A DNA stretch of 64,000 nucleotides from Propionispira arboris (GTDB taxonomy: Bacteria; Bacillota; Negativicutes; Selenomonadales; Selenomonadaceae), in the NCBI RefSeq assembly GCF_900109225.1, contig NZ_FNZK01000007.1, forward strand, positions 117,889-181,888, read 5' to 3'. Below are positions 27,496-60,507 of the stretch, piece after piece. The stretch's first letter is position 1. Each line of letters begins with the position of its first letter. The position numbers and the translations under genes are program-made. Under the pieces are notes generated by a model. The model was not told the origin of the DNA and searched no databases. It was given only the letters and a program-made list of their open reading frames with translations.

Positions 27496-27962
27496 AAGCC
27501 GTCTCCATTTTTTGCCGCGATTTTTACCGCAGCTACAATCATACTATAACCGGTACAGCGGCAGAGATTTCCCGATAGTGCCTGTCGTATTTCTGTTTCA
27601 TTTGGCGATGCGTTCACATGTAATAAGGCTTCGGCCGCCAGCAGCATACCCGGGGTACAAAATCCGCATTGTACAGCACCAGCCTCCGCAAAGGCAGCCG
27701 CTAAAATGTGATAGCGTTCCGTATCTTTAAACCCTTCAATTGACATGATATCCAGTTGTTCGACACTGCCAATCGGCGTAATGCAGCTGTTGATAAGTTT
27801 ATGGTTGGCGAGGACGGCACAAGCGCCGCATTCACCTTCACCGCAGCCTTCCTTGACACCAGTCAGGGCGAAATCTTCTCTTAGAACATCCACAAGTCTT
27901 TTTTGCAGATTGGTCTGAATGGATACTGACTGGTTATTTAGCGTAAAGGAAATGGTTTTCAT
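27489..27962 (-). CDS. Molybdenum hydroxylase (xanthine dehydrogenase) 2Fe-2S subunit
   Basis: 157 aa, full length. Plant-ferredoxin-type cluster ligands are Cys40, Cys45, Cys48 and Cys60; the second, helical cluster has Cys99, Cys102, Cys134 and Cys136. It carries electrons from the molybdenum centre to the flavin subunit. It overlaps the upstream molybdopterin subunit gene by 29 nt and the FAD subunit gene by 7 nt, so the complex is made stoichiometrically. Confidence 0.95.
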   Translation of the reverse strand: MKTISFTLNNQSVSIQTNLQKRLVDVLREDFALTGVKEGCGEGECGACAVLANHKLINSCITPIGSVEQLDIMSIEGFKDTERYHILAAAFAEAGAVQCGFCTPGMLLAAEALLHVNASPNETEIRQALSGNLCRCTGYSMIVAAVKIAAKNGDGLW

Positions 27963-30102
27963 TTTGCAGGACCTCCAAGAGATATTCCGGTGTTACGGGC
28001 AGGCGATCTATACGGATTTTTAAGGCTTGTGCTACGGCAGCAGCATAGGCGGGAGCTGCACCAATCAGTGTCAGTTCTCCAGCACCTTTCGCACCGAAAG
28101 GACCATCCTTATAATAGGTAGTGAAAAGTTTGTGATTAACTTTGCCAAAGTCAACCATCGTCGGGATTGTATAGTTGGTCAGGCTGTCTTGCATTATTTT
28201 TCCGTTTTGGTCATTGGTCATTACTTCCATGCTTGCATAACCTAAGCCTTGCAGTACACCGCCTTCGATTTGACCCTGAATAATTTGTTCATCAATTGCT
28301 TGACCAATATCAAATACAGTCCAGACACCATTGACATCGACTTGGAGTGTCAATGGATCTACGGTTGTTTCGACTACATTGATTCCCCAGGCATAGGCAG
28401 GATATGCATCCCCGTGTGATTTTTCACTGTCCCAATGCATTCGATCTGGCTGTTTGTAGGCTTGGGTGATTTCAATCGTTCCTTTTTCCAGCCAGCGTGC
28501 TTTCAATTTTCGCGCCGCATCTTCTAAGAGCTTTCCTACAATCATAATAGAACGTGATGCAACGGTTGGACCCGAGTCAGGAACGTGGTCGGTGTCAGGA
28601 TTGTTAAAGATGATGTCGGTCATTGGTATAGCTAAAGCCGCAGCAACAATTTTTTTGAAGGTTGTTTTCAAACCTTGTCCCATATCGACATTGGCGGCAA
28701 GAATTTCCACTTGCTGGGAATTGGCTTGGCGCCGTAATTTTATTTTTGCTTTGATAATATCACGCTCACCACTGCCGGTGAAACCGCAGCCATGGAGAAA
28801 GAGTGAAATACCAATGCCGTGATGATTTTCATTTTTTTGATAGAGTTCGTATTTTGGGGTATAATCGGACATTTTTTCGATGGTCGCAAGCATTTCCGGC
28901 AAAGGAACTTTGTCGAGAAAAAGACCACTAGTAGCGGTGCTGTCCCCTTGTTTTACCATATGGAGTTTTTTATAGTCTAAAGGATTTTTTTGCAGCTTTT
29001 TGGCCAGATATTCCATATGCATTTCCATGGCGAAAAAAGCTTGTGGTGCACCGAAGCCGCGAAAAGCTCCATTAGGAATTGTATTAGTGGCGACTACACA
29101 GCCATGTACTTCGAGATTTTGAATGTGATAAACACCTGTAATGTTAAAGAGGCTTCGCTGGAGCACAACATCGGATATTCCGGCATAGGCTCCGCCGTCA
29201 AGAATGACATTGATTTTCATGCCTATTATTTTTCCAGATGCATCTAAAGCGGTTTGGAAGGTAATTTGTGCTGGATGACGGCGGGTTGTCGATGCCATGT
29301 CTTCCAGTCGGTCATATAAAATAGCAACAGGGCGTCCAACTTTTTTTGCAGCAATGGCAGCATGACCTGCCAAAATCGATGGATAATCTTCTTTACCGCC
29401 AAAAGCGCCGCCTGTTGTCGTCTGGACAATGCGCACCTTTTCTTCGGGCAAAGCAAGAGCCTGTTCTAAAGCGCGTTTGATATAATAAGGACATTGCAGC
29501 GAGCCATAGACCGTTACTTTGTCATCGGCTTCAGGAACCGCAATCATTCCTTGGTTTTCTAAATAGGCATGTTTTTGATAGCCTGTGGTATATTCATCGG
29601 TTTCGATCGTTTTTGCTTGGCTAAAAGCCCGTGAAATATCACCTTTTTCATAAGTGTAAGAAGCGAACTTATTATCTTTACCAAAAATCGCACCCCCGGC
29701 ACAACGCAAGGATTCTTCATAGGTGAGTGCCGCTGTCAGTGGCTGGTATTCAATCGTGATTTTATTTGCCAGCTCTTTGAGTTTTTGCCGATTCGGACCC
29801 ACGATTAAGAGAATTGGCTCACCAATGTAATTCACCACCGTTTCGGCTAAAAAGGGTTGATCGTTAACGAGGAATTTTACGCGGTTTTGCCCGGGAACGT
29901 CGTTGTGATCAATAATAAAATACTCTTTTGGTAAGACTGGATAGTGAATGGCTTGTATTTTAGCCCGTGCTTTGGTAGAACGAATGGTTTTTCCATAGAG
30001 CATATTATCAAATTTTAAATCGGCAATATATTTTGCGGAGCCACTTGTTTTTTCCTGATTGTCGACTTTGTTTACGCGAATACCGATATTGGTGTTATTC
30101 AT
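27934..30102 (-). CDS. Molybdenum hydroxylase (xanthine dehydrogenase-like) molybdopterin subunit
   Basis: 722 aa catalytic subunit hydroxylating a purine such as xanthine or hypoxanthine. Seen: TGGAFGGKED, GAFRGFGAPQ with the active-site Arg region, and the catalytic Glu676 in GAKGAGEL. The N-terminal ald_xan_dh_C domain begins at IADLKFDNMLYGKTIRS. Exact substrate (xanthine, hypoxanthine, nicotinate) cannot be fixed from motifs. The neighbourhood of guanine deaminase, nucleobase permease and a guanine-class riboswitch argues strongly for purines. MocA-like and XdhC-like maturation genes nearby suggest a modified, possibly selenium-containing cofactor. Confidence 0.9.
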   Translation of the reverse strand: MNNTNIGIRVNKVDNQEKTSGSAKYIADLKFDNMLYGKTIRSTKARAKIQAIHYPVLPKEYFIIDHNDVPGQNRVKFLVNDQPFLAETVVNYIGEPILLIVGPNRQKLKELANKITIEYQPLTAALTYEESLRCAGGAIFGKDNKFASYTYEKGDISRAFSQAKTIETDEYTTGYQKHAYLENQGMIAVPEADDKVTVYGSLQCPYYIKRALEQALALPEEKVRIVQTTTGGAFGGKEDYPSILAGHAAIAAKKVGRPVAILYDRLEDMASTTRRHPAQITFQTALDASGKIIGMKINVILDGGAYAGISDVVLQRSLFNITGVYHIQNLEVHGCVVATNTIPNGAFRGFGAPQAFFAMEMHMEYLAKKLQKNPLDYKKLHMVKQGDSTATSGLFLDKVPLPEMLATIEKMSDYTPKYELYQKNENHHGIGISLFLHGCGFTGSGERDIIKAKIKLRRQANSQQVEILAANVDMGQGLKTTFKKIVAAALAIPMTDIIFNNPDTDHVPDSGPTVASRSIMIVGKLLEDAARKLKARWLEKGTIEITQAYKQPDRMHWDSEKSHGDAYPAYAWGINVVETTVDPLTLQVDVNGVWTVFDIGQAIDEQIIQGQIEGGVLQGLGYASMEVMTNDQNGKIMQDSLTNYTIPTMVDFGKVNHKLFTTYYKDGPFGAKGAGELTLIGAAPAYAAAVAQALKIRIDRLPVTPEYLLEVLQNENHFLYAK

Positions 30103-30132: not shown

Positions 30133-31476
30133 TTATTGCAGGCGCATATAGAAATTAATTAAAAAAGCCAAACTGACTAAGCACATAATCCAGCTCACAT
30201 CTTTGCCTTTGCCGGCGAAAAATTTAATAAACGTATAACTGATAAAACCAAAGGCAAAACCATTGGCGATACTGGAAGTTAATGGCATCATGATAATTGT
30301 CATAAATGCGGGGAAACCTTCTGTGAAGTCAGTGAAATCAACCTGACTGATATCAGACATCATTAGAGCACCTACTAAAATCAATGCTGGTGCTGTTGCA
30401 AAACCCGGAACTAACCCAATCAGTGGGGCAAAAAATAAAGAAATAAGGAATAACACGGCAACGGTTAGTGCTGTTAAGCCGGTTTTTCCACCTTCGGCAA
30501 TGCCGGCAGCACTTTCGATATAAGATGTGACCGTTGATGTACCAAATAACGCACTGCCTAACGTACCAACCGCATCGGTTGTTAAAGCTTTATCAAGATT
30601 TTCGATCTCGCCATCTTTATTGACTAAGTTTGCTTTACGGGTTAAGCCGATTAAAGTTCCCATATTATCAAATAACTCAACAATCGTGAAGGTAAAGATG
30701 ATCGAGAAGATACCATAATTCCAGGCACCGGCAATGTCTAATTGCATAAATGTTTCACCCATGCTTGGCAGATTGAAGCTGATAATATCATTCAGTGATT
30801 GTGGTGTCGGCGATACACCGCAGATCATACTTAAAAGCGTGGTTGCTAAGATACCCATAATAATCGAGCCTTTTATTTTACGAGCCATTAACGCTGCGGT
30901 GAGAATCAGTCCAAAGCAGGCGAGTAAAGTTTTAGGATCGAGCAAGTGACCCAGGCTGATGAAGGTTGCTTTGTCAGCAGCAATAATACCGGCACCTTTC
31001 AGGCCGATAAAGGCAATGAAAAGTCCAATGCCAACACCGATAGAACATTTTAAATTCATCGGCACGGAACGAATGATAGCCTGGCGAATGCCGCCCAGTG
31101 TTAAAATTAAAAATAAAATTCCTGAGAAAAATACGGCACCTAATGCGACTTGCCAGGAAAGATGTAAAACACCAACAACATAATAAGCAAAAAAAGCGTT
31201 TAAGCCCATGCCTGGGGCTAAAGCAATTGGATAATTTGCCCAAAAAGCCATAAGACTGGTAGCGAGTGCGGTGGCCCAGATCGTTGAAGCGATAGCGGCC
31301 TCTTTTGGAATACCGGCATCGGCTAAGATATTTGGATTGACAAACATGATATAGGCTAAGGCAACAAAGGTAGTCAGACCTGCGAGTAGTTCCGTTTTTA
31401 TCGTAGTTCCTTTTGCTTTGAGTTTAAATAATTTTTCTAAAATACCTTGATTTTCTGTCGTTTCCTTTGTGGTCAT
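30133..31476 (-). CDS. AzgA-type NCS2 purine permease (hypoxanthine/guanine/xanthine)
   Basis: 447 aa membrane protein with about 12-14 helices. AzgA/PbuG signatures are visible: AGLTTFVALAYIMFVNP near the N-terminus, GLNAFFAYYVV, LFDNMGTLIGLTRKANL and GTSTVTSYIESAAG. It imports purine bases by proton symport. First gene of the minus-strand purine operon, with AAGGAGTG before the start. A leader of about 470 nt carries a guanine-class riboswitch and a copy of the palindromic repeat, so its transcription is probably ligand-controlled. Confidence 0.92.
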   Translation of the reverse strand: MTTKETTENQGILEKLFKLKAKGTTIKTELLAGLTTFVALAYIMFVNPNILADAGIPKEAAIASTIWATALATSLMAFWANYPIALAPGMGLNAFFAYYVVGVLHLSWQVALGAVFFSGILFLILTLGGIRQAIIRSVPMNLKCSIGVGIGLFIAFIGLKGAGIIAADKATFISLGHLLDPKTLLACFGLILTAALMARKIKGSIIMGILATTLLSMICGVSPTPQSLNDIISFNLPSMGETFMQLDIAGAWNYGIFSIIFTFTIVELFDNMGTLIGLTRKANLVNKDGEIENLDKALTTDAVGTLGSALFGTSTVTSYIESAAGIAEGGKTGLTALTVAVLFLISLFFAPLIGLVPGFATAPALILVGALMMSDISQVDFTDFTEGFPAFMTIIMMPLTSSIANGFAFGFISYTFIKFFAGKGKDVSWIMCLVSLAFLINFYMRLQ

Positions 31477-31734: not shown

Positions 31735-31785
31735 AAAAAATATTAGACCTTACTATAATATTGCAGTTGATATAGTAAAGCAAAA
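31735..31785 (-). terminator. Probable expression-platform hairpin of the purine riboswitch
   Basis: On the minus strand CUUUACUAUA pairs with UAUAGUAAGG, followed after seven nucleotides by a run of seven U. It lies directly downstream of the aptamer and may be the ligand-controlled terminator. The gap before the U-run makes this tentative. Confidence 0.4.
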
Positions 31786-31796
31786 TAATTTCATGC

Positions 31797-31869
31797 TTCT
31801 TGTAGCCTATGACAATTTAAGGTTGTCTGGTAGAAACGCCCATACCTTATTTATGAACTTATACAAGAA
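31797..31869 (-). ncRNA. Purine riboswitch, guanine class (atypical 3' junction)
   Basis: Minus-strand aptamer in front of the AzgA permease-xdh-guaD operon. P1 is UUCUUGUA/UACAAGAA, P2 GUUCAUA/UAUGGGC with loop AAUAAGG, the invariant J2/3 GUUUCUACC is exact, and P3 loop is CCUUAAA. The L2 GG and L3 CC that form the loop-loop kiss are present. The specificity base before the P1 3' strand is C (C74 equivalent), indicating guanine-like ligands. The 3' strand of P3 and J3/1 is three nucleotides longer than in the classical xpt aptamer and reads AUAGGC where GACU is usual. Confidence 0.82.
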
Positions 31870-31872
31870 TAC

Positions 31873-31918
31873 AAAAAAGGCGCATTTCATAAAAGATTCC
31901 TTTTATGAAATACGCCTT
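31873..31918 (-). terminator. Strong hairpin with U-tract upstream of the purine aptamer
   Basis: An 18-bp stem (31877-31894 with 31901-31918) around a 6-nt loop, followed on the minus strand by six U. The single non-Watson-Crick position is a G-U pair only when transcribed on the minus strand. It lies between the minus-strand promoter (31953-31981) and the riboswitch, so most transcripts could end here. Confidence 0.75.
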
Positions 31919-41814: not shown

Positions 41815-43401
41815 ATGAAATACCTGATTAAAAATGGACAGATTATCGATGGCACAGGCAAAGAACGTTTTGCGGGGGACCTGCTTATCGAAAATGAACG
41901 CATTGCGGCTATTGGTGTTATTGAGGCGACGGACGTTGATCAAATATTCGATGCACAAGGTAAAATTGTCGCACCGGGATTTATCGATACCCATAGTCAT
42001 TCTGATTTGCAGGTATTGGTTAATCCTTATATTGAACCGAAAATTCGGCAGGGGGTTACAACGGAGCTACTGGGACAAGATGGTATTTCAATGGCTCCCT
42101 TGCCTGCCCGGTACATTTCACCTTGGCGAAAAAACCTAGCAGGTCTCGATGGTGATAGTGAGGATATTGACTGGTCTTACGAGACGACAGACGGATATTT
42201 GAAACTTTTGGAACAACAAGGTGTGGGCCTTAATGAAGCCTATTTAGTGCCGCATGGGAATGTCCGCATGGAAGCGATGGGACTTACGAATCGACCGCCA
42301 ACCGCGCAAGAAATGCAAAAAATGTGTGATATAACCGATCGTGAAATGCAAGCTGGTGCCTATGGATTGTCAACGGGACTTATCTACATGCCCTGTGCTT
42401 ATTCGGGGCTTTCTGAAATTGTCGCTTTGTGTAAAGTAGTAGCAAAGTATGATGGCGTTTTTGTTGTCCATCAACGCAGTGAAGCAGACACTATTTTGGA
42501 ATCGATGGAAGAAATATTGGAAATTGGCCGTCAATCGGGCGTCAAACTTCACTTTTCCCATTTTAAAGTATGTGGTCGTAAAAACTGGCGATTTATCGAA
42601 CCGGTGATTGCCCTTTTGGATAAGGCTAAAGCGGAAGGTCTGCAAGTCTCCTTTGATCAATACCCGTATGTTGCTGGTAGTACCATGCTTGGTGTTATTT
42701 TGCCGCCTTGGGTGCATGACGGTGGGACAGATCAGCTGTTGAAACGATTAGAAGATGCAGACCTTCGGCAAAAAATGATTTACGATATGGAACATGGTTT
42801 GTATGGCTGGGATAATTTTGTTGATTTTGCGGGGCTGGATCAGATTTTTGTAACGAGTGTTAAATCACAGAAAAACATAGATCTGATTGGTAAAAACTTA
42901 GTGGAAATTGGTCAAATTCGTCAGAAAGATACGTATGAGGCGGTTTTTGATTTATTGTATGAAGAGGAAAATGCCGTTGGTATGGTTGATTTTTATGGTA
43001 TAGAAGAACATGTCACTCGATTTATGTGTCGACCAGAACAAAATGTTTGCACAGATGGTCTTTTGGGCGGCAAACCGCATCCTCGGGTTTATGGCTCGTT
43101 TCCGAGAGTTTTGGGCAAATATGTGCGGGAAGAAAAAGCACTGACTTTAGAGTCCGCAATTTATAAAATGACGGGAAAACCAGCTGCGGTATTTGGTTTT
43201 AAGGACAGAGGCACGATTCAAATTGGTAACTTTGCTGATCTTGTTATTTTTGATCCAGAAGTCATAATGGATCGGGGGACCTTCATTGAACCCATTCAGT
43301 ATCCCGCAGGAATTCAGGCTGTTTTTATAAATGGTGAACTCGTTTTACAGCAAGGAATTTATGAAAAAAAATGCCCCGGCAAAGTTTTGCGACGCGCTTA
43401 A
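41815..43401 (+). CDS. N-acyl-D-amino-acid deacylase / D-aminoacylase-like amidohydrolase
   Basis: 528 aa amidohydrolase: PGFIDTHSHSDLQVL (HxH metal pair), QGVTTELLGQDGISMAP and LHFSHFKVCG with a further His ligand. The C-terminal DLVIFDPEVI segment is typical of the family. Nearest types are D-aminoacylase and dihydroorotase-like enzymes. It starts 5 nt after ygeY, so it is co-translated. In this cluster it probably deacylates or decarbamoylates an N-substituted amino acid formed from ring opening, rather than free D-amino acid conjugates. Confidence 0.85.
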   Translation: MKYLIKNGQIIDGTGKERFAGDLLIENERIAAIGVIEATDVDQIFDAQGKIVAPGFIDTHSHSDLQVLVNPYIEPKIRQGVTTELLGQDGISMAPLPARYISPWRKNLAGLDGDSEDIDWSYETTDGYLKLLEQQGVGLNEAYLVPHGNVRMEAMGLTNRPPTAQEMQKMCDITDREMQAGAYGLSTGLIYMPCAYSGLSEIVALCKVVAKYDGVFVVHQRSEADTILESMEEILEIGRQSGVKLHFSHFKVCGRKNWRFIEPVIALLDKAKAEGLQVSFDQYPYVAGSTMLGVILPPWVHDGGTDQLLKRLEDADLRQKMIYDMEHGLYGWDNFVDFAGLDQIFVTSVKSQKNIDLIGKNLVEIGQIRQKDTYEAVFDLLYEEENAVGMVDFYGIEEHVTRFMCRPEQNVCTDGLLGGKPHPRVYGSFPRVLGKYVREEKALTLESAIYKMTGKPAAVFGFKDRGTIQIGNFADLVIFDPEVIMDRGTFIEPIQYPAGIQAVFINGELVLQQGIYEKKCPGKVLRRA

Positions 43402-43430
43402 CCAATAAAACATATCGCAGGAGGTTTGTT

Positions 43431-44204
43431 ATGCAAGAAAATTCAATAAAATCAACTTTTGCCGCGATGCAGGCAGCAATTGAGCAAAAACAAAGTGTTG
43501 ATGTTATGACGCTGCTCAGTTCATCTGGCGAAACGCAAATGCTCCTGCTTTATAAAAATGGAGAAATAGTCGGTGAAATTATCAATCTTGATTTTACCAA
43601 CAAAATAAAGTCCTATCAAAAGAACCACAGTTGGAACAAACCTGTTTTGTTTACCATGGTCGATGCGCAGGGGGCATCACAGCAAATTTTTTGGGATCGG
43701 GTTTTGCCGCAGCCCAAGGTTTTCATCTTGGGTGCTGGACATATAAGCAGATCGTTGGCAGCCATTTTATCGATTCTGGAATATGAGGTAATCGTGGCGG
43801 ATGACCGTCCTGATTTTGCGAATATACGGTCTTTTCCTACGGCACAGACGGTATTGTGTGATAGCTTTGAAAATATTATTTCTCGGCTGATGCCGACGGT
43901 TGACGTCAATACAGCTGTTGTTATTGTTACCAGGGGGCATCGCTATGATTTTCTTTGTTTGAAAAATTTTTTGACTGCGAATTTTGGCTATCTGGGGATG
44001 ATTGGCAGCCAGTCTCGTATCAAAGGGACGCTGCAGAGACTGCTCGAAGAAGGTGAAGATCCGGTTCGGCTGCGTAAAATTCATTCGCCGATTGGCATAG
44101 CGATTGCTGCACAATCTCCGGCAGAAATTGCCATAAGCATTGCAGCCGAGCTTATTGATGTTTTTAATGGTGGGCACGGTCCCTTGAAACGGTTGGAGGA
44201 GTAA
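43431..44204 (+). CDS. xdhC: XdhC-family molybdenum enzyme maturation protein (Rossmann part)
   Basis: 257 aa from the ATG at 43431, with GGAGG upstream. The XdhC C-terminal Rossmann domain is clear: PKVFILGAGHISRSL (nucleotide loop), VIVADDRPDFAN, VTRGHRYDFLCL, GYLGMIGSQSR and IHSPIGIAI. The N-terminal ~90 residues are a diverged XdhC_CoxI-like domain without the usual GSxPRxxG motif. XdhC binds molybdenum cofactor and installs the terminal sulfur (or selenium) ligand in xanthine dehydrogenase. The missing N-terminal motif is found in the next small gene. Confidence 0.87.
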   Translation: MQENSIKSTFAAMQAAIEQKQSVDVMTLLSSSGETQMLLLYKNGEIVGEIINLDFTNKIKSYQKNHSWNKPVLFTMVDAQGASQQIFWDRVLPQPKVFILGAGHISRSLAAILSILEYEVIVADDRPDFANIRSFPTAQTVLCDSFENIISRLMPTVDVNTAVVIVTRGHRYDFLCLKNFLTANFGYLGMIGSQSRIKGTLQRLLEEGEDPVRLRKIHSPIGIAIAAQSPAEIAISIAAELIDVFNGGHGPLKRLEE

Positions 44205-44207
44205 AAG

Positions 44208-44525
44208 ATGGATATAACATTAATTCCCCATATCTGTCAGTCATTAAAAGAGTCAAAACAAGTTGTTTTAGCGACGATTGTCGCAACCAAAGGTTCTACA
44301 CCACGAAAAACCGGCAGCCAAATGCTTGTTTTTCGTGATGGGCAGGTACGGGGGACGATTGGCGGTGGCTGCGGTGAAGCGGACGTGAAAATGGCTGCAT
44401 TATGTGTATTCGATGCAGGGCAAGCATCGCTTCATACGGTCACGATGCTTAACGATGCTGCCAGTGAAGAAGGCATGGCCTGCGGCGGCATTATGCAAGT
44501 ATTTTTGCAGTTAATTGGAGAATAG
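44208..44525 (+). CDS. XdhC_CoxI N-terminal-domain protein (stand-alone)
   Basis: 105 aa. Carries exactly the domain lacking its motifs in the previous gene: VVLATIVATKGSTPRKTGSQML, GTIGGGCGEADV and MACGGIMQVF. Together the two genes cover a complete XdhC in split and reversed order. It begins 3 nt after the upstream stop and ends the island; a long hairpin follows. Probable role in maturing the molybdenum hydroxylase. Confidence 0.87.
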   Translation: MDITLIPHICQSLKESKQVVLATIVATKGSTPRKTGSQMLVFRDGQVRGTIGGGCGEADVKMAALCVFDAGQASLHTVTMLNDAASEEGMACGGIMQVFLQLIGE

Positions 44526-45130: not shown

Positions 45131-45373
45131 GGAAAGATGCACGAAGGTCAATTCAAGAAGATAAATGTAGGCCCATACTACCAAATATAGAAACATTCCT
45201 TACTAGTGAGAACATTTATTCGAATTGTCAATTGGTTAAAAGCAGTTTCGAGCAAATATCATGTGATGAGTCATTGCACAGGTTTTGAGGCGAGGATTTG
45301 TCTTGATTAAAGATTGTTTCCAATAGGCTATAAAACCTTTTGGCGCGATAAATAAATACTAGGAGGAATGCAT

Positions 45374-47068
45374 ATGAAACAACGTTTGCCGATTGGCATT
45401 CAGTTAGGTACGCTAATGGGAATTGCCTTAACACTAATGGTTATTCTCGTTGGCATTTTACTTTATCAACTGCGGGCAACAAATCTGGAATATCAGGGGA
45501 TTTTGAATGGAACAGTTACACGAACATTGGCACTGCAAAGTGCGCAAGATGATTTTCATGAGGCCTTAAGTGACTTCCGTGGCTATTTTGCTTATAATGA
45601 TGAAAAATATGCTGTGGATACATTAACTTTACTTGGGAAAAGTTCGGAAGCTGTAACGAAGATTACGACAGCGATGGATGGAACAACAGGCAATAAACAA
45701 GCTGGCGAAAACTTGCAGGAAGAAATGCACAGCTATATAGATGAAATGAAACAGATCATCGAATTGAAAAAAACGAATCAATTACAGGATAATAACCGAC
45801 TCATAGCATTGCGTAAAAAAACCGAAACAGTTAATGCATTATTTGATAAAACGATGGCGCTTCAAGATGAGGCATTGCAAAAGAAAATTAATAATTTAAA
45901 TGATAAAGAAGAAACGATTTTTAAAGGTGTAATTCTTACAAGTCTAATCGGAATCCTTCTTATCATAGTTCTTTTATTTTTATATAGCCGGAATTTATCG
46001 CGTCGAATTCAAAGGTTGCAAACGAATATTTTATCGGTAAGTAAATTAGATTTATCGCATCCCGATGTGCAGGCGACTCGCAATGATGAAATCGGCGATA
46101 TGGCAGGCGAGATTATCAAGCTGAAAAAAGCGCTGCGTGATATTGTAGGTTTACTGAGAAATAACGCAGATGTACTTGCCGCCTCAAGTGAAGAACTTTC
46201 TTCATCTGTCGAAGAACAAATGCAGGTATCGGAAAGTGTGGCGAAAACCATCACTGAAGTTTCAGCTGGTGCGGATAAAAACACCAAAAACATAACAGAA
46301 ATATCAGCTGTGATTGAGCAGGTTGGTGCTAGTACAGAAGAAATGAGTGCCAGTGCTTCACATGTCAATCAGGTTACGCAGGACGCTGTAGGCGATGCGG
46401 ACAATGGAATGCAGTTAATACATAGGTTAGTTGCACAAAATGATACAATCCAGACATCTATGATTGATATTACAAATGTTTCAGAAGCATTGGTAAAAGG
46501 GTCAGGTGATATTCAGCAAATTATTACAACGATTCGTTCGATTGCCGGACAGACGAATCTTCTGGCATTAAACGCTGCAATTGAAGCAGCCAGAGCGGGT
46601 GAAGTCGGTCGGGGCTTTGCGGTAGTAGCCGAAGAAGTTCGTAAACTTGCTGAACAGAGTGCGGGTGCTACAAATACGATTGGTGAAATTATTGAAAAAA
46701 TGACAACGGATATTCAATTCACCGTTGATGTCGTAGCTAAGGCCAATCAGGAAGTGGTGGCTGGGAAAGCCGCAACCGACGCAACGCAGCAAGGGTTCCA
46801 GACTATTATCAGCAAGCTGTCGGAAGTTCGACATGGTATGGGGCAGATTAGTCAGGCTGTTGATGAAACAGCACATGGCATGCAGTCGGTTGTCAACAAT
46901 GTTCAAAACATTGGCACTGTTGCAGCCGAAACGAGCAGCAGCGCACAAACTGTTGCAGCAGCGGCCGAGGAACAAAGCGCTAGTTTGCATGAAGTGAGTG
47001 CAAGCTCGGATGCTTTGGCCCAAATGGCAACAGATCTTAATGCGATTACCGCGAAATTTAAAATGTAA
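45374..47068 (+). CDS. Methyl-accepting chemotaxis protein (four-helix sensor type)
   Basis: 564 aa from the ATG at 45374 (AGGAGG 7 nt upstream; ATG at 45368 is too close). One membrane helix at about 8-30, an extracytoplasmic helical sensor of about 150 aa, a second membrane helix near 180-202, and a HAMP domain lead to the signalling coiled coil. The conserved hairpin tip is [20 protein letters not shown]. Methylation helices are rich in EE/Q pairs. Ligand unknown. The C-terminal end lacks a CheR-binding pentapeptide. Confidence 0.92.
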
Positions 47069-47202: not shown

Positions 47203-47250
47203 AAAAACGCACCTGTCATCAACTAAAAACGATGATAGGTGCGTTTTTTC
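47203..47250. terminator. Bidirectional terminator
   Basis: ACGCACCTGTCATC (47207-47220) pairs with GATGATAGGTGCGT (47231-47244), flanked by an A-run and a six-T run. It serves the chemoreceptor on the plus strand and the ABC ATPase on the minus strand. Confidence 0.9.
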
Positions 47251-48530
47251 TATACGGTACTTTCTAAATAAACCTGCTCTTTATTTTGGTCATATTCGAC
47301 CAGTTCAGCGTAACGTTCCCAGCTGATCAATAAAGCCATTTGTGATTGGGCTGTTTTATCACCAAAGGTGCGGGCCAGTAAATCCTCGAAAAACTCAATA
47401 TTCATTTTTTTATTGGATTTTGACTCCAAAATTGTGATCATTTGCTGAACAAAAGGAACATGAGCCAATAATTGTTCGCTGAATAATTTTTTGCGTTCAA
47501 GGACAGTCGCTCGGGCAAATTGGATACCTTCGGCAGTAAGTTCAATATCACCTTCCACAACTTGAGCAAATTGCAGTAACGTTGATAATTCCACTAAAGG
47601 AAAAAAATCTTCAATATCCATCATAAAACGGCTGGCTAATTTATAAAGATCGGTTTTTTCATTCAGATCTTCCAATAATTCCAAGAAACCCGTTAAAGCA
47701 CCAGCTGATACTTGTGGGAGTTGGGTCAGCTTTTTCAGCTGTGGTAAAGCTGGTGGCAAGGCGGTGATCTTCTTTTTGGTCATGAAGGAATAAATTTCAT
47801 CTACAATGGATAGAAATTCAGGTGATTTTTTGTCACGCCAGCGCGGAATTGTGATCTTGACATCTTTTACGATTTCAGCTGGACTTTTTGATAAAATAAT
47901 TGCTCGATCGGCCATATAGACCGCTTCTTCAATCCCGTGCGTGACTAAAATAATCGCTTTTGTGGGGATTTTTTTGTCGAGCCACAATTCCAACAAATCA
48001 CGGCGGAGATTTTCAGCCGTTAACACATCTAAAGCGGAAAAGGCTTCATCCATTAAGAGTACATCCGGTTCACTAACTAACGCCCGTCCTATTCCGACCC
48101 TTTGCCTCATACCGCCCGATAATTCTTTTGGGTAGGCATTCTCAAAACCATCCAGACCGACAATATCAATGACCTGTAAGGCTTTTGCTTGTTTTTCTGC
48201 TTTGGTAAGGTTTTTATCTTCAAGCCCCAGCATAACATTTTCTAAAACGGAAAGCCACGGAAAAAGTGCAAAGGACTGGAAGACCATGGCGACACCCGGA
48301 TTGACACCCTCAATAGGAGATCCCAGGTAGGAAACTGTACCGCTGGAGGCGGGGATAAGACCGGCAATAATTCGCAGCAAGGTTGATTTACCGGAACCGG
48401 ATGGGCCTAAAATGGCCAAAAATTCACCTTCCTGAATATTGATGCTGATATTTTCTAAAATAGAAGCAGCACTGCGTCCTTCTATAGCAAATGTTTTATT
48501 TACATTTTTGATTTCAACTAAATTTTTCAT
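47250..48530 (-). CDS. NitT/TauT-type ABC ATPase with AAA-associated C-terminal domain
   Basis: 426 aa. Residues about 1-240 form a complete ABC domain: Walker A GPSGSGKST (near 40), signature LSGGMRQRV and Walker B VLLMDEAFSALD. The remaining ~180 residues are an AAA-associated C-terminal domain (winged-helix-like, FFPLVELSTLLQFAQVVEGDIELTAEG; shown for the fold: ELTAEGIQFARATVLERK), possibly regulatory. It follows the duplicated permease by 12 nt. No substrate-binding protein is encoded nearby. The M-box upstream suggests control by magnesium. Confidence 0.9.
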   Translation of the reverse strand: MKNLVEIKNVNKTFAIEGRSAASILENISINIQEGEFLAILGPSGSGKSTLLRIIAGLIPASSGTVSYLGSPIEGVNPGVAMVFQSFALFPWLSVLENVMLGLEDKNLTKAEKQAKALQVIDIVGLDGFENAYPKELSGGMRQRVGIGRALVSEPDVLLMDEAFSALDVLTAENLRRDLLELWLDKKIPTKAIILVTHGIEEAVYMADRAIILSKSPAEIVKDVKITIPRWRDKKSPEFLSIVDEIYSFMTKKKITALPPALPQLKKLTQLPQVSAGALTGFLELLEDLNEKTDLYKLASRFMMDIEDFFPLVELSTLLQFAQVVEGDIELTAEGIQFARATVLERKKLFSEQLLAHVPFVQQMITILESKSNKKMNIEFFEDLLARTFGDKTAQSQMALLISWERYAELVEYDQNKEQVYLESTV

Positions 48531-48542
48531 AAACCATACCTC

Positions 48543-50285
48543 CTAGTCAATGTGATATTTAACTTCAGCTAAACGATATAAGCGATGCCAGACAAAGCGA
48601 TTGATCATTACAACGAAAATGCACATGACCGTAATGCCCAAAACGATTTTGGGCCAGTCGCCCTGTGTGGTAGCCTGACTGATATAGGCACCTAATCCAG
48701 TGGCCACGAGATCGTTTTCGTGCCAGCTGACTAACTCGGATACGATGCTTGCATTCCATGCCCCACCGGAAGCGGTAATCAAACCAGTAACGAGATGGGG
48801 GAAAATGCTGGGCAGAATTAATGTTTTCCATTTGTTCCAGCCCTTCATATTGAATATGGAGGATACTTCAATTAAATCATTGGGGATACTTGAAGTACCA
48901 GCAATTACATTAAACAGGATATACCATTGCGTACCGAGCATCATGAGTGCAATGCAGCCCCACTGAAAATCTACATGGAATTTAACAAATAAAATGGTGA
49001 TAAAGGGAAATAACATATTTGCCGGAAAAGAAGCGGCGATCTGAATAACAGGTTGGAATATTTTTGACAGCTTAGGCGTTAGACCGATTTTTACGCCTAT
49101 GGGAATGGTCCAGATCAGACCTAATAACAAGGCAATGATGACTCTGATAAATGTATAGAAGCCTAATTGCAGGATCGAGAAAAGTTCACGAGGTTCCATC
49201 GCAGCAAGCATGGCAAAAGCTTCCTGGGCTGGTTCGGCTAACAGATAAAGAACGCCAACGGTAAGACAAAGTGGCACAATAGTCGGCAGACCTTTTATCG
49301 ATGTTCGGCTTTGCATACTCAGACTGGCAGCGGTTGAAAGTTCCGCTATTTGATTGAAGATGCAGTTAAAGACTTTACATAAAGGATTCAAAACCCATTC
49401 ATTGATTAAGCGAATTAACGCAGAGCGTTGTAGCAAATTATAGACATAGGAAGAAGGCATATCCGAGGATTCGGATAACTCAATTTTGAATTTTTGGCTC
49501 CATACGACAAGGGGCCGCCAAAATAGTTGGTCAACTAATATAATCATGATTAACATGGTGAGTATTGAATAATAAATTGCTTCCATATTACCAGCTTCTA
49601 CAGCAGCCGCTAAAAAGGAGCCTACACCAGGTAAATGAATATTTTCACCTAAAACACTGATAGCTTCACTGGCGGCGAGGAAAAACCAACCACCGCCAAA
49701 AGACATCATGCCATTCCAAACCAAGCCGATCATTGCTACGGGAAGTTCTAGTTTTATTAATTTTTGCCACCAGTTCAAATGCAAGATAGTGGCGGCTTCC
49801 TGCAAATCCTTTGGTGTTGTAACTAAAGAGTGATAAAAGCTGAATGTCATATTCCAGGCTTGCCCGGTGAAAATAGCGAAAATAGAAGCACATTCCACGC
49901 CCAGTAAACTTCCGGGAAAAAACGCCATAAAAGCAACAATTGTTACGGATAGAAAGCCTAAAACTGGAACGGATTGCAGAATATCCAGTAATGGAATTAA
50001 TATCTTTTGGGCAAATTTGTTTTTTGCTGCAATATAGCCATAGATAAATGTAAAGATTAAAGAAGCTCCAAAGGCAATAAACATTCTGAGCAAAGAACGG
50101 CCGGCGTAATAAGGCAGCATGTTTGGTTCAAGTGAGATTGCCGGCTGCTGTTTCGGTGAAAAAGGAATGCTCATACCTGCCCCGAGTTTTAAAATCGTAT
50201 AGAATAAAATAAAAATAAAGGCTAAAATAAAAAAATCGATTATACTAAATTTTCGTTTTGATATGTTTGCTGTAAATAAAGCCAT
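48543..50285 (-). CDS. Duplicated ABC permease (two fused BPD_transp_1 domains)
   Basis: 580 aa membrane protein with about twelve helices, made of two permease halves at roughly 60-270 and 365-570. Each has an EAA-type coupling loop (DLQEAATILHLNWWQKL; DLIEVSSIFNMKGWNKW). Such duplicated permeases are filed as anion-type transporters of unknown substrate. One polypeptide supplies both membrane halves for the ATPase downstream. The gene is preceded by a 350-nt leader containing an M-box Mg2+ riboswitch and terminator. This is the strongest hint that the transporter handles Mg2+ or a Mg2+-linked solute. Confidence 0.88.
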   Translation of the reverse strand: MALFTANISKRKFSIIDFFILAFIFILFYTILKLGAGMSIPFSPKQQPAISLEPNMLPYYAGRSLLRMFIAFGASLIFTFIYGYIAAKNKFAQKILIPLLDILQSVPVLGFLSVTIVAFMAFFPGSLLGVECASIFAIFTGQAWNMTFSFYHSLVTTPKDLQEAATILHLNWWQKLIKLELPVAMIGLVWNGMMSFGGGWFFLAASEAISVLGENIHLPGVGSFLAAAVEAGNMEAIYYSILTMLIMIILVDQLFWRPLVVWSQKFKIELSESSDMPSSYVYNLLQRSALIRLINEWVLNPLCKVFNCIFNQIAELSTAASLSMQSRTSIKGLPTIVPLCLTVGVLYLLAEPAQEAFAMLAAMEPRELFSILQLGFYTFIRVIIALLLGLIWTIPIGVKIGLTPKLSKIFQPVIQIAASFPANMLFPFITILFVKFHVDFQWGCIALMMLGTQWYILFNVIAGTSSIPNDLIEVSSIFNMKGWNKWKTLILPSIFPHLVTGLITASGGAWNASIVSELVSWHENDLVATGLGAYISQATTQGDWPKIVLGITVMCIFVVMINRFVWHRLYRLAEVKYHID

Positions 50286-50401
50286 GATAATTTACCTCCA
50301 TGCATTAAGAATATCGTTGTTATTTTTAGTGGACTTTCTAATAAAATTGAACTACACGATCGACTGTCACTATCGTCCATTCTTAAGCACCCCTTTCAAA
50401 A

Positions 50402-50431
50402 CAAAAAGACCTTCCGCAAGACGGAAGGTCT
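50402..50431 (-). terminator. Terminator of the M-box expression platform
   Basis: AGACCTTCCG (50407-50416) pairs with CGGAAGGTCT (50422-50431) around CAAGA; on the minus strand five U follow. It lies between the M-box aptamer and the permease start and should form when Mg2+ is bound. Confidence 0.9.
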
Positions 50432-50461
50432 AAAATTTTCCCATAGAAAAAACAGCTGACG

Positions 50462-50632
50462 AAGCCTTCCCAATCGTTCAAGTTTTAGCACTGCACAACG
50501 TAGAGTCAAATAATTCTCAGCCACCTTAAGTAATACCTTATGTCGATAATACCTGTTCTACCCGTTGGCATCTCTCGATGTTTCGGGGCAGTGGCCTGTG
50601 TTCATACAGGAACCTCACCTAACGGAATCTAT
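50462..50632 (-). ncRNA. M-box (ykoK) magnesium riboswitch
   Basis: Minus-strand leader with all conserved blocks of the M-box: GUUAGGUGAGG, then CACUGCCCC, GAUGCCAACGGGU, AUCGACAUAAGG and CAGUGCUAAAACU, in the right order and spacing. High Mg2+ compacts this RNA and releases a terminator, lowering expression of the gene behind it, normally a Mg2+ transporter. Here the downstream genes are a duplicated ABC permease and its ATPase. Confidence 0.93.
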
Positions 50633-50644
50633 AAATTTGTTTTT

Positions 50645-50672
50645 ATAATATGGCTTATTTATTTATAAGCAA
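50645..50672 (-). promoter_or_regulatory. Promoter of the M-box/ABC transporter operon
   Basis: On the minus strand TTGCTT (50667-50672), 16-nt spacer, TATTAT (50645-50650), starting transcription a few bases before the M-box. Confidence 0.65.
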
Positions 50673-50757: not shown

Positions 50758-52725
50758 TTAAATTTTAAATTTGTTGATCATATTATGCATTTCTTCGGCC
50801 AACTCGGCTAAGGCATGTGAAGAAGAAGCAATTTCCTGCGTGGAAGCAGATTGTTCTTGTGTCGCAGCTGAGATTGTCTGCGTCTTTTCAGCCGTTTCAC
50901 GACTTACCGTATTAACATCTGCGACGGATTGGATAATGTTTTGTCCACCCGCCGAGACTTGTTGAACGGAGGCGGATATTTCTTGCATTTTTGCGCTGAT
51001 TGCTTCTACCATAGTAATGATACGATTGAATTCACTACCAACATTTGTGATGGCAGCGGAGCCGGTTTTTACTTCTTCCGTACCATTATGCATCACTTGT
51101 ATCGCATTTTGCGTATCTTGCTGGATTGTAGCCACGAGGTGTTTAATTTCTTCGGTAGAACGCTGCGACTGCTCAGCAAGTTTGCGCACCTCTTCCGCTA
51201 CTACAGAAAATCCGCGGCCTTGTTCTCCGGCACGGGCGGCTTCAATCGCCGCATTCAAAGCTAAAAGGTTCGTTTGATCAGCAATTCCAGAAATCACATC
51301 AATGATCTGGCCGATTTCTTTCGAGTTTTCGCCAAGTCTGGTTACGACATCAGCTGACTGCCCTACCGAAGTTTCGATATGATTCATTTGAGCGATGGCA
51401 TCATTCATTAATTTTTTGCCGTTTTCGGCAGCACTGGCTGTTGTGACCGTTATTTCAGCTACTTTGCTGGTATGGTCAGCGGTTTTGGTAATTTCCTGAA
51501 TGATTGTATTCACATGATTTGTCGTGGTTTCAATCGTGTCCATTTGATGGGACATGCCATTGGATACATGGGTGATGGTTTCTGCTACATGATTTGAAGC
51601 TTCAGCTGATTGTGATGCCCCCGCTGTGAGTTCTTCGGAGGATGCAGCAACTTGTTCCGAAACGGTAGACATTTTAAAGATAAGGTCGTGCAAATGAGCA
51701 TTCATGATATTAAATGCATTCGTAAGCTGTCCGATTTCATCAGCGGATTCGACCGGCATTTTTTCCAAACGAAGATTTCCGTCTGCCATTTGATTTGCCT
51801 GGTTCGTCAATTTTGTTATTGGTCGTGTAATTTTACCGGAGAATTTCAAACAAATAAAAATCATAAGAAGAAGTCCAAACAGTGTTAAAATACTATACCC
51901 ATATTTGAGGGCAGCCAGGTCACTGTATATTACTTTTTCGGGGATGACGCAACCTACAATCCAGCCGGTAGACGGTACTGTATTATAGGTAAAAATCATT
52001 CTGTCACCGCCCAGGTCATACGTGAAAAAACCGGTACCATTATGTAGGATGTCATTGGCATGCTCTTTTAGTTCAGGCAGATCCGATATATTTTTCGATA
52101 TGTTTTCCTGATTGCCATCGGCGATAATAAGTCCATCGGCATTTAGGATGAAGCCCGTGCCGTTACCGTTGTATTTTAAAGATTCCGTTTGTTTTTCGAG
52201 AATATCGAGATCAATATCAGAACCTAAAACGCCTTTGAAGTTTCCAGCTTTATCTTTAAGTGGATAGGCTGCGGATACGACCATTTTACCAGTTAATGCA
52301 TCGACATAAGGGGCGGTGAAGATGAGTTTGTTCTGTGCTTTGGCATCTTTGTACCAGCCACGGGTCAAAGGGTTAATATCACCAAGGCCTTTGGAGTACG
52401 AAATGAATTTTGCATCGCTGCTGCCAAAATATACTTCCTGAATATCTTTGTCATCTTTGGCACCGCTTAAATGATCTTGTGTCAAAGGAATGGAACCGGC
52501 AATATCCATTGTCTGCAATGTATGGGACATCATTTCAATTTCATTGCCTTTCGACGTAAGCCAATGATCGAGGTCGGCAGAATTTGATTTTACAATGCCA
52601 GTCATTTCTTTTTCAATACTGGCGGTTAGATATTTTTGCGCTGTATAATAACCTGTTATAGAAACAATTCCTAAGATACAAGCCACAATACCAGCTAAAA
52701 TAAAGAATTTTTGTTTGATTTGCAT
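50758..52725 (-). CDS. Methyl-accepting chemotaxis protein with dCache sensor
   Basis: 655 aa. Membrane helix near 8-30, then an extracytoplasmic dCache_1 domain of about 240 aa ([20 protein letters not shown] and [14 protein letters not shown] segments), second membrane helix near 275-295, HAMP and signalling domain with the tip [25 protein letters not shown] cut here as [17 protein letters not shown]. dCache chemoreceptors usually bind amino acids, purines or organic acids directly. The key ligand residues cannot be judged by eye. Given the neighbouring purine island a purine ligand is possible but unproven. Confidence 0.92.
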
Positions 52726-60238: not shown

Positions 60239-60328
60239 GGAGAGTTGTCCGAGCGGTTGAAGGAGCACGCCTGGAAAGCGTGTGTACGGGAAACTGTACC
60301 TAGGGTTCGAATCCCTAACTCTCCGCCA
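60239..60328 (+). tRNA. tRNA-Ser (anticodon GGA)
   Basis: Acceptor stem GGAGAGT/ACTCTCC, D arm with GAGCGGTTGAAG, anticodon stem CACGC/GCGTG with loop CTGGAAA (anticodon GGA at 60273-60275), long class II variable arm GTGTACGGGAAACTGTACC and T arm GGTTCGAATCC, encoded CCA end. It decodes UCC and UCU. Confidence 0.96.
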
Positions 60329-60359
60329 TTAAAATTCAAAATAGAAATTCCTTTTTAAG

Positions 60360-60482
60360 GTCGGACCGCGGCGCCTTGGTCTTGCGCAATGGAAACTTGC
60401 GAATCCCGTCAGGTCCGGAAGGAAGCAGCGGTAAGTGATCATTTTCATGTGCCGTGAGGTTGCCTGGGGGCTGCGGCCCGAC
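60360..60482 (+). ncRNA. ffs: Signal recognition particle RNA (4.5S, small bacterial type)
   Basis: Contains the SRP apical motif GTCAGGTCCGGAAGGAAGCA, with the Ffh-binding symmetric and asymmetric loops. The ends GTCGGACCGCGGC and GCTGCGGCCCGAC pair to form the basal stem. About 123 nt, so without an Alu domain. Lies between tRNA-Ser and dnaX, a common order. Confidence 0.95.
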
Positions 60483-60507
60483 GTTGAAAAGGAATTGTAT
60501 AGAAAAT

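Follow-up and report, generated by a model that had tools for sequence, protein, structure and literature searches.

An ABC permease–ATPase pair that recurs behind M-box RNAs and acidic leader reading frames is a candidate magnesium importer

In a 64,000-nucleotide (nt) stretch of the Propionispira arboris genome (contig NZ_FNZK01000007.1, positions 117,889 to 181,888 of the forward strand; hereafter the window, in whose coordinates all positions are given), a fused double permease and an ATPase of the ATP-binding cassette (ABC) type lie behind an M-box, an RNA family known as a magnesium sensor. This permease–ATPase pair recurs behind M-boxes in four phyla. A first-pass annotation, made from the window sequence alone, had proposed that the pair may import Mg2+ or move a ligand linked to Mg2+ supply. 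Recurrence across classes and phyla, together with the operon partners mgtA and mgtC, makes a role in Mg2+ supply well supported, and a regulatory link of the pair to Mg2+ is very probable. The ion itself as substrate goes a step further: judged on sequence and gene context, direct Mg2+ import by the pair is probable, and we favour with similar confidence a picture in which it would bring Mg2+ into Mg2+-starved cells under the M-box and a short acidic leader open reading frame (ORF).

The M-box aptamer occupies 50633-50462 on the minus strand and matches Rfam family RF00380 at 150.4 bits (cmscan, E 2.9e-34; gathering score 44) over all 169 positions of the model (1-169), bearing out the earlier call of a complete M-box; it is the sole M-box found in the 4.26-Mb genome. 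The terminator predicted behind it is likewise present at 50431-50407 (−), as an 11-bp hairpin with six G-C pairs followed by TTTTTGTTTTG (TTTTTG), the intrinsic terminator of the M-box expression platform. The aptamer 3' strand ATTGGGAAGGCTTC (50461-50474, −) could pair with CCTTCC of the terminator 5' arm as an antiterminator, and the computed energies are −11.2 kcal/mol for this duplex and −17.2 kcal/mol for the terminator hairpin. If the element behaves like other members of the M-box family, high Mg2+ would compact the aptamer and let the terminator form, and at low Mg2+ the aptamer 3' strand would pair with the terminator arm and transcription would go on. The claim that the unit has its own promoter stands in part: a promoter-like pair with a 16-nt spacer is present at 50672-50645 (−), but it is weak, with three of six consensus positions in TTGCTT (50672-50667) and five of six in TATTAT (50650-50645), and it was not listed by a consensus promoter scan.

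The permease (48543-50285, −; 580 residues) carries PF00528 twice, in two stretches scoring 87.8 bits against a cut-off of 26.4, and the ATPase (47250-48530, −; 426 residues) combines PF00005 with a C-terminal PF09821 domain, which agrees with the duplicated permease and AAA-associated domain described before. No substrate-binding-protein gene adjoins the pair by eye (the rest of the genome was not searched); the flanking ORFs at 45368-47068 and 50758-52725 look like chemotaxis receptors, also by eye, so this observation of the first-pass annotation holds as well. The fused permease would supply both membrane halves of one importer, through which Mg2+, or a Mg2+ complex, would pass without help from an operon-encoded binding protein. 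Membrane domains of known Mg2+ importers (PF01769 of MgtE, PF01544 of CorA, the P-type ATPase MgtA and PF01566 of NrmT) were not found in the permease, which has PF00528 only. Its family is large, with at least 7996 proteins at E <= 1e-60 among 8000 scored, and the best 120 of these are mostly unnamed or labelled NitT/TauT.

To place the locus in its class, 300 genomes of Negativicutes were scanned for M-boxes (RF00380) and permease orthologues. M-boxes were found in 58 genomes, at 73 places, and the permease orthologue in 24 genomes, 23 of which encode it in one piece. In the assembly of the other (G270, locus L055) the M-box-linked permease reads as two fragments, and an ambiguous base lies close by. 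Seventeen of the 24 orthologues lie directly behind an M-box, the distance from aptamer to start codon being 120-204 nt. The remaining 56 M-box places reduce to 48 leaders when tandem copies are merged, and their first genes, classified by ORF clusters with one representative of each checked, are MgtE_N-like (24), MgtA (11), Nramp-type (9), MgtC then MgtA (2), CorA (1) and a pseudouridine synthase (1), which leaves 47 of the 48 in front of Mg2+-linked families. Measured against these other targets, the 17 ABC loci make the pair a major M-box target of Negativicutes. Tandem M-boxes precede one operon in eight of the 48 leaders (L003, L004, L005, L007, L008, L009, L017 and L023), with starts about 250-310 nt apart, and one 148-bit M-box (L153, genome G059) stands before an RNA pseudouridine synthase gene. 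The first-pass list of M-box targets (MgtE, CorA and MgtA) was incomplete, as Nramp-related NrmT genes are described as M-box-controlled as well (PMC4072509).

The association is not confined to this genome or class. A scan of named genomes returned at least 578 stretches encoding permease relatives, of which the best 80 were analysed as named loci; three of them (L062, L063 and L096) share genomes with L037, L047 and L052 and thus repeat class loci. The ATPase gene is present beside the permease in 77 of the 80. Ten named loci have an M-box upstream on the permease strand, seven from Bacillota (Pelosinus of the Negativicutes, two Paenibacillus, one Alicyclobacillaceae, another Bacillota and two Clostridium) and three from elsewhere (Anaerolineae and Ktedonobacteria of the Chloroflexota, and Citrifermentans bremense of the Geobacteraceae, Thermodesulfobacteriota), and the order M-box, mgtC, permease occurs in three (two Nocardia and one Tsukamurella). 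Taken with the genome surveys, M-box and pair occur together in Negativicutes, Bacilli, Clostridia, Chloroflexota, Thermodesulfobacteriota and Actinomycetota, extending what the first-pass annotation had seen at a single locus. Mapped onto a quickly built tree of 106 permeases, with the 65 unlabelled rows left uncounted, the M-box label can be explained by 4 changes where shuffled labels require 10.6, which indicates that the association groups by lineage rather than being scattered freely; the starred branches make at least three label changes unavoidable, and one row, L182, is very long.

Genes for Mg2+ handling also adjoin the pair directly. Any Mg2+-linked element was found in 24 of the 80 named loci: an upstream M-box in 13, mgtA in six, mgtC in one (L141), an Nramp-type gene in three (L095, L097 and L139) and a weak MgtE_N match in one (L131), the neighbours in L139 and L131 being weak at 32% and 24% identity. 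The expected share is about 1%, an estimate from about five such genes per 5-Mb genome with no matched control, and, as MgtE_N and CorA were each represented by a single query, distant members would escape the search. Among actinomycetes, the pair lies beside mgtA in L100, L102, L107, L115, L116, L134 and L185, and beside mgtC in L107, L116, L120, L135, L140, L141 and L185; the P-type ATPase of L100 clears the MgtA cut-off of 610.75 bits with a score of 919. In Paenibacillus yr247, about 130 nt separate the end of a CorA match from the M-box that follows. The M-box–ABC unit of L254 (G131, contig 81) has a divergent Nramp-type gene about 1.2 kb upstream, also on its strand.

Several observations weigh against Mg2+ import by the pair. 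Seven of the 24 class orthologues (in G190, G229, G137, G021, G260, G151 and G116) have no adjacent M-box; wider stretches around these seven loci contained none either, and no RNA family reached its Rfam gathering score there. In the class of Clostridium 56 of 245 genomes have an M-box, and in that of Paenibacillus 73 of 200 do; of 30 M-box loci examined from each class, none in Clostridia and two in Bacilli lead into the ABC permease. In the actinomycete class the permease (E <= 1e-60) appeared in only seven of 296 genomes, at eight loci, two of them with an M-box upstream, one being the genome of L120 itself; because the class and actinomycete searches scored no more than a few candidates in each genome, some orthologues may have escaped them. 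For 56 of the 80 named loci our queries found no Mg2+-related element in the fetched flanks, and these include all the cyanobacterial and nearly all the Pseudomonadota loci. Of 39 ABC-bearing genomes tested, 38 also have CorA, and P. arboris has two CorA and one MgtE_N/Nramp operon, so the pair is not its sole candidate Mg2+ importer; the idea that it is the sole Mg2+ importer of its hosts was rejected on the CorA count. That operon (L252, contig 31; an MgtE_N-like gene at 55% and an NrmT-like gene at 66% identity) has no M-box and no acidic leader ORF by scan, in contrast to relatives whose MgtE_N/Nramp operon has an M-box.

The kinship of the permease also counts against the ion as substrate. 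Annotation places the family in NitT/TauT; among solved sequences, those of bicarbonate and nitrate permeases (CmpB and NrtB) come closest and share E517; and although the closest match spanning both halves of the AlphaFold2 model (pLDDT, the predicted local distance difference test score, 77; predicted template modelling score 0.75) is FbpB of a ferric importer (9j4r), single CmpB chains reach a Z-score of 21.2, slightly above FbpB. This kinship and the CmpB score keep an anion substrate in play, and we therefore considered a transporter that is regulated by Mg2+ and imports an anion or chelate (citrate, phosphate or bicarbonate) carrying or sparing Mg2+. In its favour, too, ntrB is the top NCBIfam match of the permease, though it stays below its curated cut-off (78.2 against 209.05 bits), as do TauC (44.4 against 342) and SsuC (32.9 against 347), and MgtC, a frequent actinomycete partner of the pair, is not known to be a transporter. 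Yet no substrate-binding-protein cluster and no recurring anion-binding-protein gene emerged among the clustered ORFs of the 80 named loci, built from crude ORF calling, and the other class M-box leaders serve Mg2+-linked families in all but one case. NrtBCD and CmpBCD differ from the pair in build: their permeases are separate single-domain chains where here two halves are fused, and the window pair has no binding-protein gene and an ATPase ending in PF09821. The orders mgtA-mgtC-ABC and M-box-mgtC-ABC resemble the mgtC-mgtB (mgtCB) arrangement of Salmonella, in which the second gene is described as a Mg2+ importer (PMC8092293). On balance an anion or chelate substrate appears unlikely.

Transport of another divalent ion (Mn2+, Fe or Ni/Co, exported or imported), with the M-box answering that ion or Mg2+ indirectly, seems very improbable. 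The ferric importer is the closest match over both halves, and a title in the reference list of PMC4072509 tells of M-box aptamers crystallised with Mn2+; against this, the FbpBC importer of Thermus thermophilus (9j4r) shares only 10% identity and a common fold shows no substrate, the aptamer fits the full M-box model at 150 bits, the partner genes are Mg2+-linked, and the same doubt over NrmT is reported to have been settled in favour of Mg2+ (PMC4072509).

The NrmT case offers a precedent for Mg2+ import by the pair. CorA, MgtE, MgtA/B and NrmT are credited with most Mg2+ import in bacteria, and NrmT, too, was an unexpected family recognised as a Mg2+ importer from its M-box position; it differs in being a secondary transporter related to Nramp, whose function was demonstrated by complementation (PMC4072509). 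The word ABC occurs nowhere in the main text of that paper. The first-pass annotation needs one correction here, in that the association was on record before: an M-box has been reported in the 5' untranslated region of an ABC operon of Bifidobacterium breve UCC2003 (Bbr_0406-07; permease COG4986), whose authors suggest metal ion homeostasis in a single sentence; that account carries no claim of Mg2+ import, no survey and no leader ORF (PMC5746004). We found no paper in the open-access literature that assigns Mg2+ transport to this ABC family, nor one that describes an acidic leader peptide associated with M-boxes.

Between terminator and permease start the first-pass annotation, which had named the M-box and terminator, overlooked a short acidic leader ORF at 50380-50240 (−). 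It has 46 codons and a stop (MDDSDSRSCSSILLESPLKITTIFLMHGGKLSWLYLQQTYQNENLV), begins MDDSDSRSCSS with acidic residues D2, D3 and D5, which fits the MgtL/MgtQ-type pattern of an acidic codon 2 and another at 4 or 5, has a Shine-Dalgarno duplex of −8.2 kcal/mol and stops 46 nt inside the permease gene, out of frame. Such an ORF is present in 16 of the 17 class M-box/ABC loci (a scan found none in L040), always overlapping the permease start, with stops at +29 to +302; relatives read MDCDGNG, MDSDSSI, MDDGEGL, MDTDGPEP, MDDGPNP and others. Among class loci without an adjacent M-box, L041 and L043 (MDDGGSQ) and L047 (MDAGADG) keep the ORF by scan and L051 has one read from the leader by eye (MDSGAGSG), and the scan found none in L052, L054 and L050.

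Similar ORFs (MDSGP, MDTDP, MDDGE and so on) follow M-boxes ahead of ABC, MgtE_N/Nramp, MgtA, MgtC and CorA genes alike. With the best Shine-Dalgarno-led ORF of 8-130 codons located 30-200 nt after the M-box counted as the candidate, 23 of the 26 ABC leaders have one, as do 42 of the 48 remaining class leaders and, out of 30 loci each, 14 from Clostridia and 27 from Bacilli; several Clostridia loci are truncated by a contig end, where the position of the M-box end rests on an assumed flank of the full 1500 nt, so the Clostridia counts are approximate. Codon 2 encodes Asp or Glu in 83 of these 106 candidates (18, 32, 11 and 22, respectively) and in 339 of 2071 candidates (16%) drawn from 20,000 random windows, a null inflated by the sampled M-box loci it contains; the M-box loci are related and not independent draws. 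The stricter pattern M[DE]x[DEG] occurs in 59 of 106 against 200 of 2071, and in 15 of the 26 M-box/ABC leaders; the window ORF misses it through Ser-4. Gly-4 is written with GGA, GGT, GGG and GGC, and Pro-5 with CCC, CCT and CCG, across loci, and this synonymous variation, with the codon-2 excess, points to selection on the peptide. The ORF is not universal, as L252 shows; where an M-box leads straight into an Nramp gene (9 of 48 leaders) it is mostly absent by scan, with L012 (a leader ORF) and L023 (a TTG-started MET...) as exceptions. Five actinomycete M-box leaders (L120, L140, L135, L188 and L095) carry Shine-Dalgarno-led ORFs reading MPDGSDR, MPDGSHR, MPEGNSQ or MDGSSCSS. A scan for hairpins followed by T runs reported a terminator-like hairpin in all 26 M-box/ABC leaders; in two Paenibacillus leaders (L064 and L065) the reported hairpin is a second one, which sits after the leader ORF in the 330 nt ahead of the permease, an arrangement resembling that of classical attenuation.

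The position and composition of these ORFs recall two described leader peptides. Escherichia coli MgtL has EPDP at codons 2-5, where ribosomes drop off at low Mg2+ and mgtA is transcribed (PMC11282234), and Asp2 and Glu5 of Salmonella MgtQ are needed to promote mgtB translation (PMC8092293). Each is a short ORF before a Mg2+ transporter gene with acidic codons 2 and 4 (MgtL) or 2 and 5 (MgtQ), and acidic residues occupy these positions, in a comparable location, in many ORFs of M-box leaders. The differences are that no homology is claimed, that the ORF here follows the M-box terminator and overlaps the permease start, and that drop-off is predicted only. By analogy with MgtL and MgtQ, a ribosome starting on the leader ORF (MDDSDS...) would be destabilised by the acidic N-terminus when Mg2+ is scarce. 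The out-of-frame overlap in the class suggests that such drop-off frees the permease start: a ribosome translating the whole ORF would run through that start and block the permease, and one dropping off early would release it. We put sensing of Mg2+ by the leader peptide at an even chance. In Mycobacterium, the stretch from an M-box to the first gene contains uORF2/Rv1805A, a short ORF that is conserved and translated; it is described as mycobacteria-specific, with neither an acidic N-terminus nor an MgtL-type mechanism named in the account (PMC12810186).

A different reading takes the leader ORF as real but confines its action to translational coupling, or to offering ribosomes a longer landing site, with no Mg2+ sensing by its acidic residues; we regard this as a serious if somewhat less favoured possibility. 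Strong Shine-Dalgarno motifs would suit coupling, and many MgtE_N leader ORFs appear to end near the next start codon (offsets compared by eye); in those leaders coupling is as likely. Against it as the whole explanation stand the codon-2 excess over random windows, the varied synonymous codons at Gly-4 and Pro-5, and the class ABC leader ORFs, which overlap the permease rather than stop at its start.

We also examined pairing between the leader-ORF start and the permease region. In the window, ATTCTTAA (50305-50312, −), just 5' of the permease Shine-Dalgarno sequence, is complementary to TTAAGAAT in the start region of the leader ORF, forming a duplex of −12.1 kcal/mol that 3 of 300 shuffles equalled. 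With the test restricted to the stretch before the permease start and 300 shuffles per locus, pairing was strong in L033, L055, L032, L044 and L035 (0, 1, 3, 6 and 8 shuffles as good), middling in L037, L034, L036, L038, L041, L045 and L043 (25, 29, 30, 33, 51, 73 and 101) and absent in L039, L042, L046-L049, L051 and L053 (at least 176), the ORF offset of L051 being wrong in this test and 4 nt off in the whole-region fold. When whole regions were folded, z was below 0 at each of the 20 loci (mean −1.6), and the ORF start paired mainly to permease codons (13 loci) or to the segment before the Shine-Dalgarno sequence (7 loci); the window itself, at z = −0.27, is not significant, which tells against the proposed control. 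Because the loci are related and the window value is so close to zero, we treat this pairing as a lead, not as evidence.

Elsewhere in the window, a Purine riboswitch (31783-31886, −; 67.6 bits) precedes a Xan_ur_permease gene (30133-31476) and, also behind it, a xanthine-dehydrogenase-like ORF (27934-30102); XdhC-like ORFs lie at 43371-44525 (+), both enzyme names being assigned by eye. A Bacterial large SRP (signal recognition particle) RNA lies at 60294-60502 (+; 91.9 bits).

Tentatively, these observations may be joined into an ABC-type class of Mg2+ importers across many phyla, under dual control by M-box transcription and drop-off on an acidic leader peptide (M-D-x-[G/D]-[P/S]); as the same peptide family also precedes MgtA, MgtC, MgtE_N/Nramp and CorA, the two-layer Mg2+ circuit may be general in Gram-positive lineages. 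If true, an ATP-driven ABC importer would add a mechanistic class to Mg2+ uptake and give a function to thousands of proteins that are mostly unnamed or labelled NitT/TauT, and it would raise the question of how Mg2+ is selected by an importer whose operon encodes no binding protein. The acidic leader ORF, for its part, would join two separately known Mg2+ sensors, the riboswitch and the destabilised ribosome, in one transcript.

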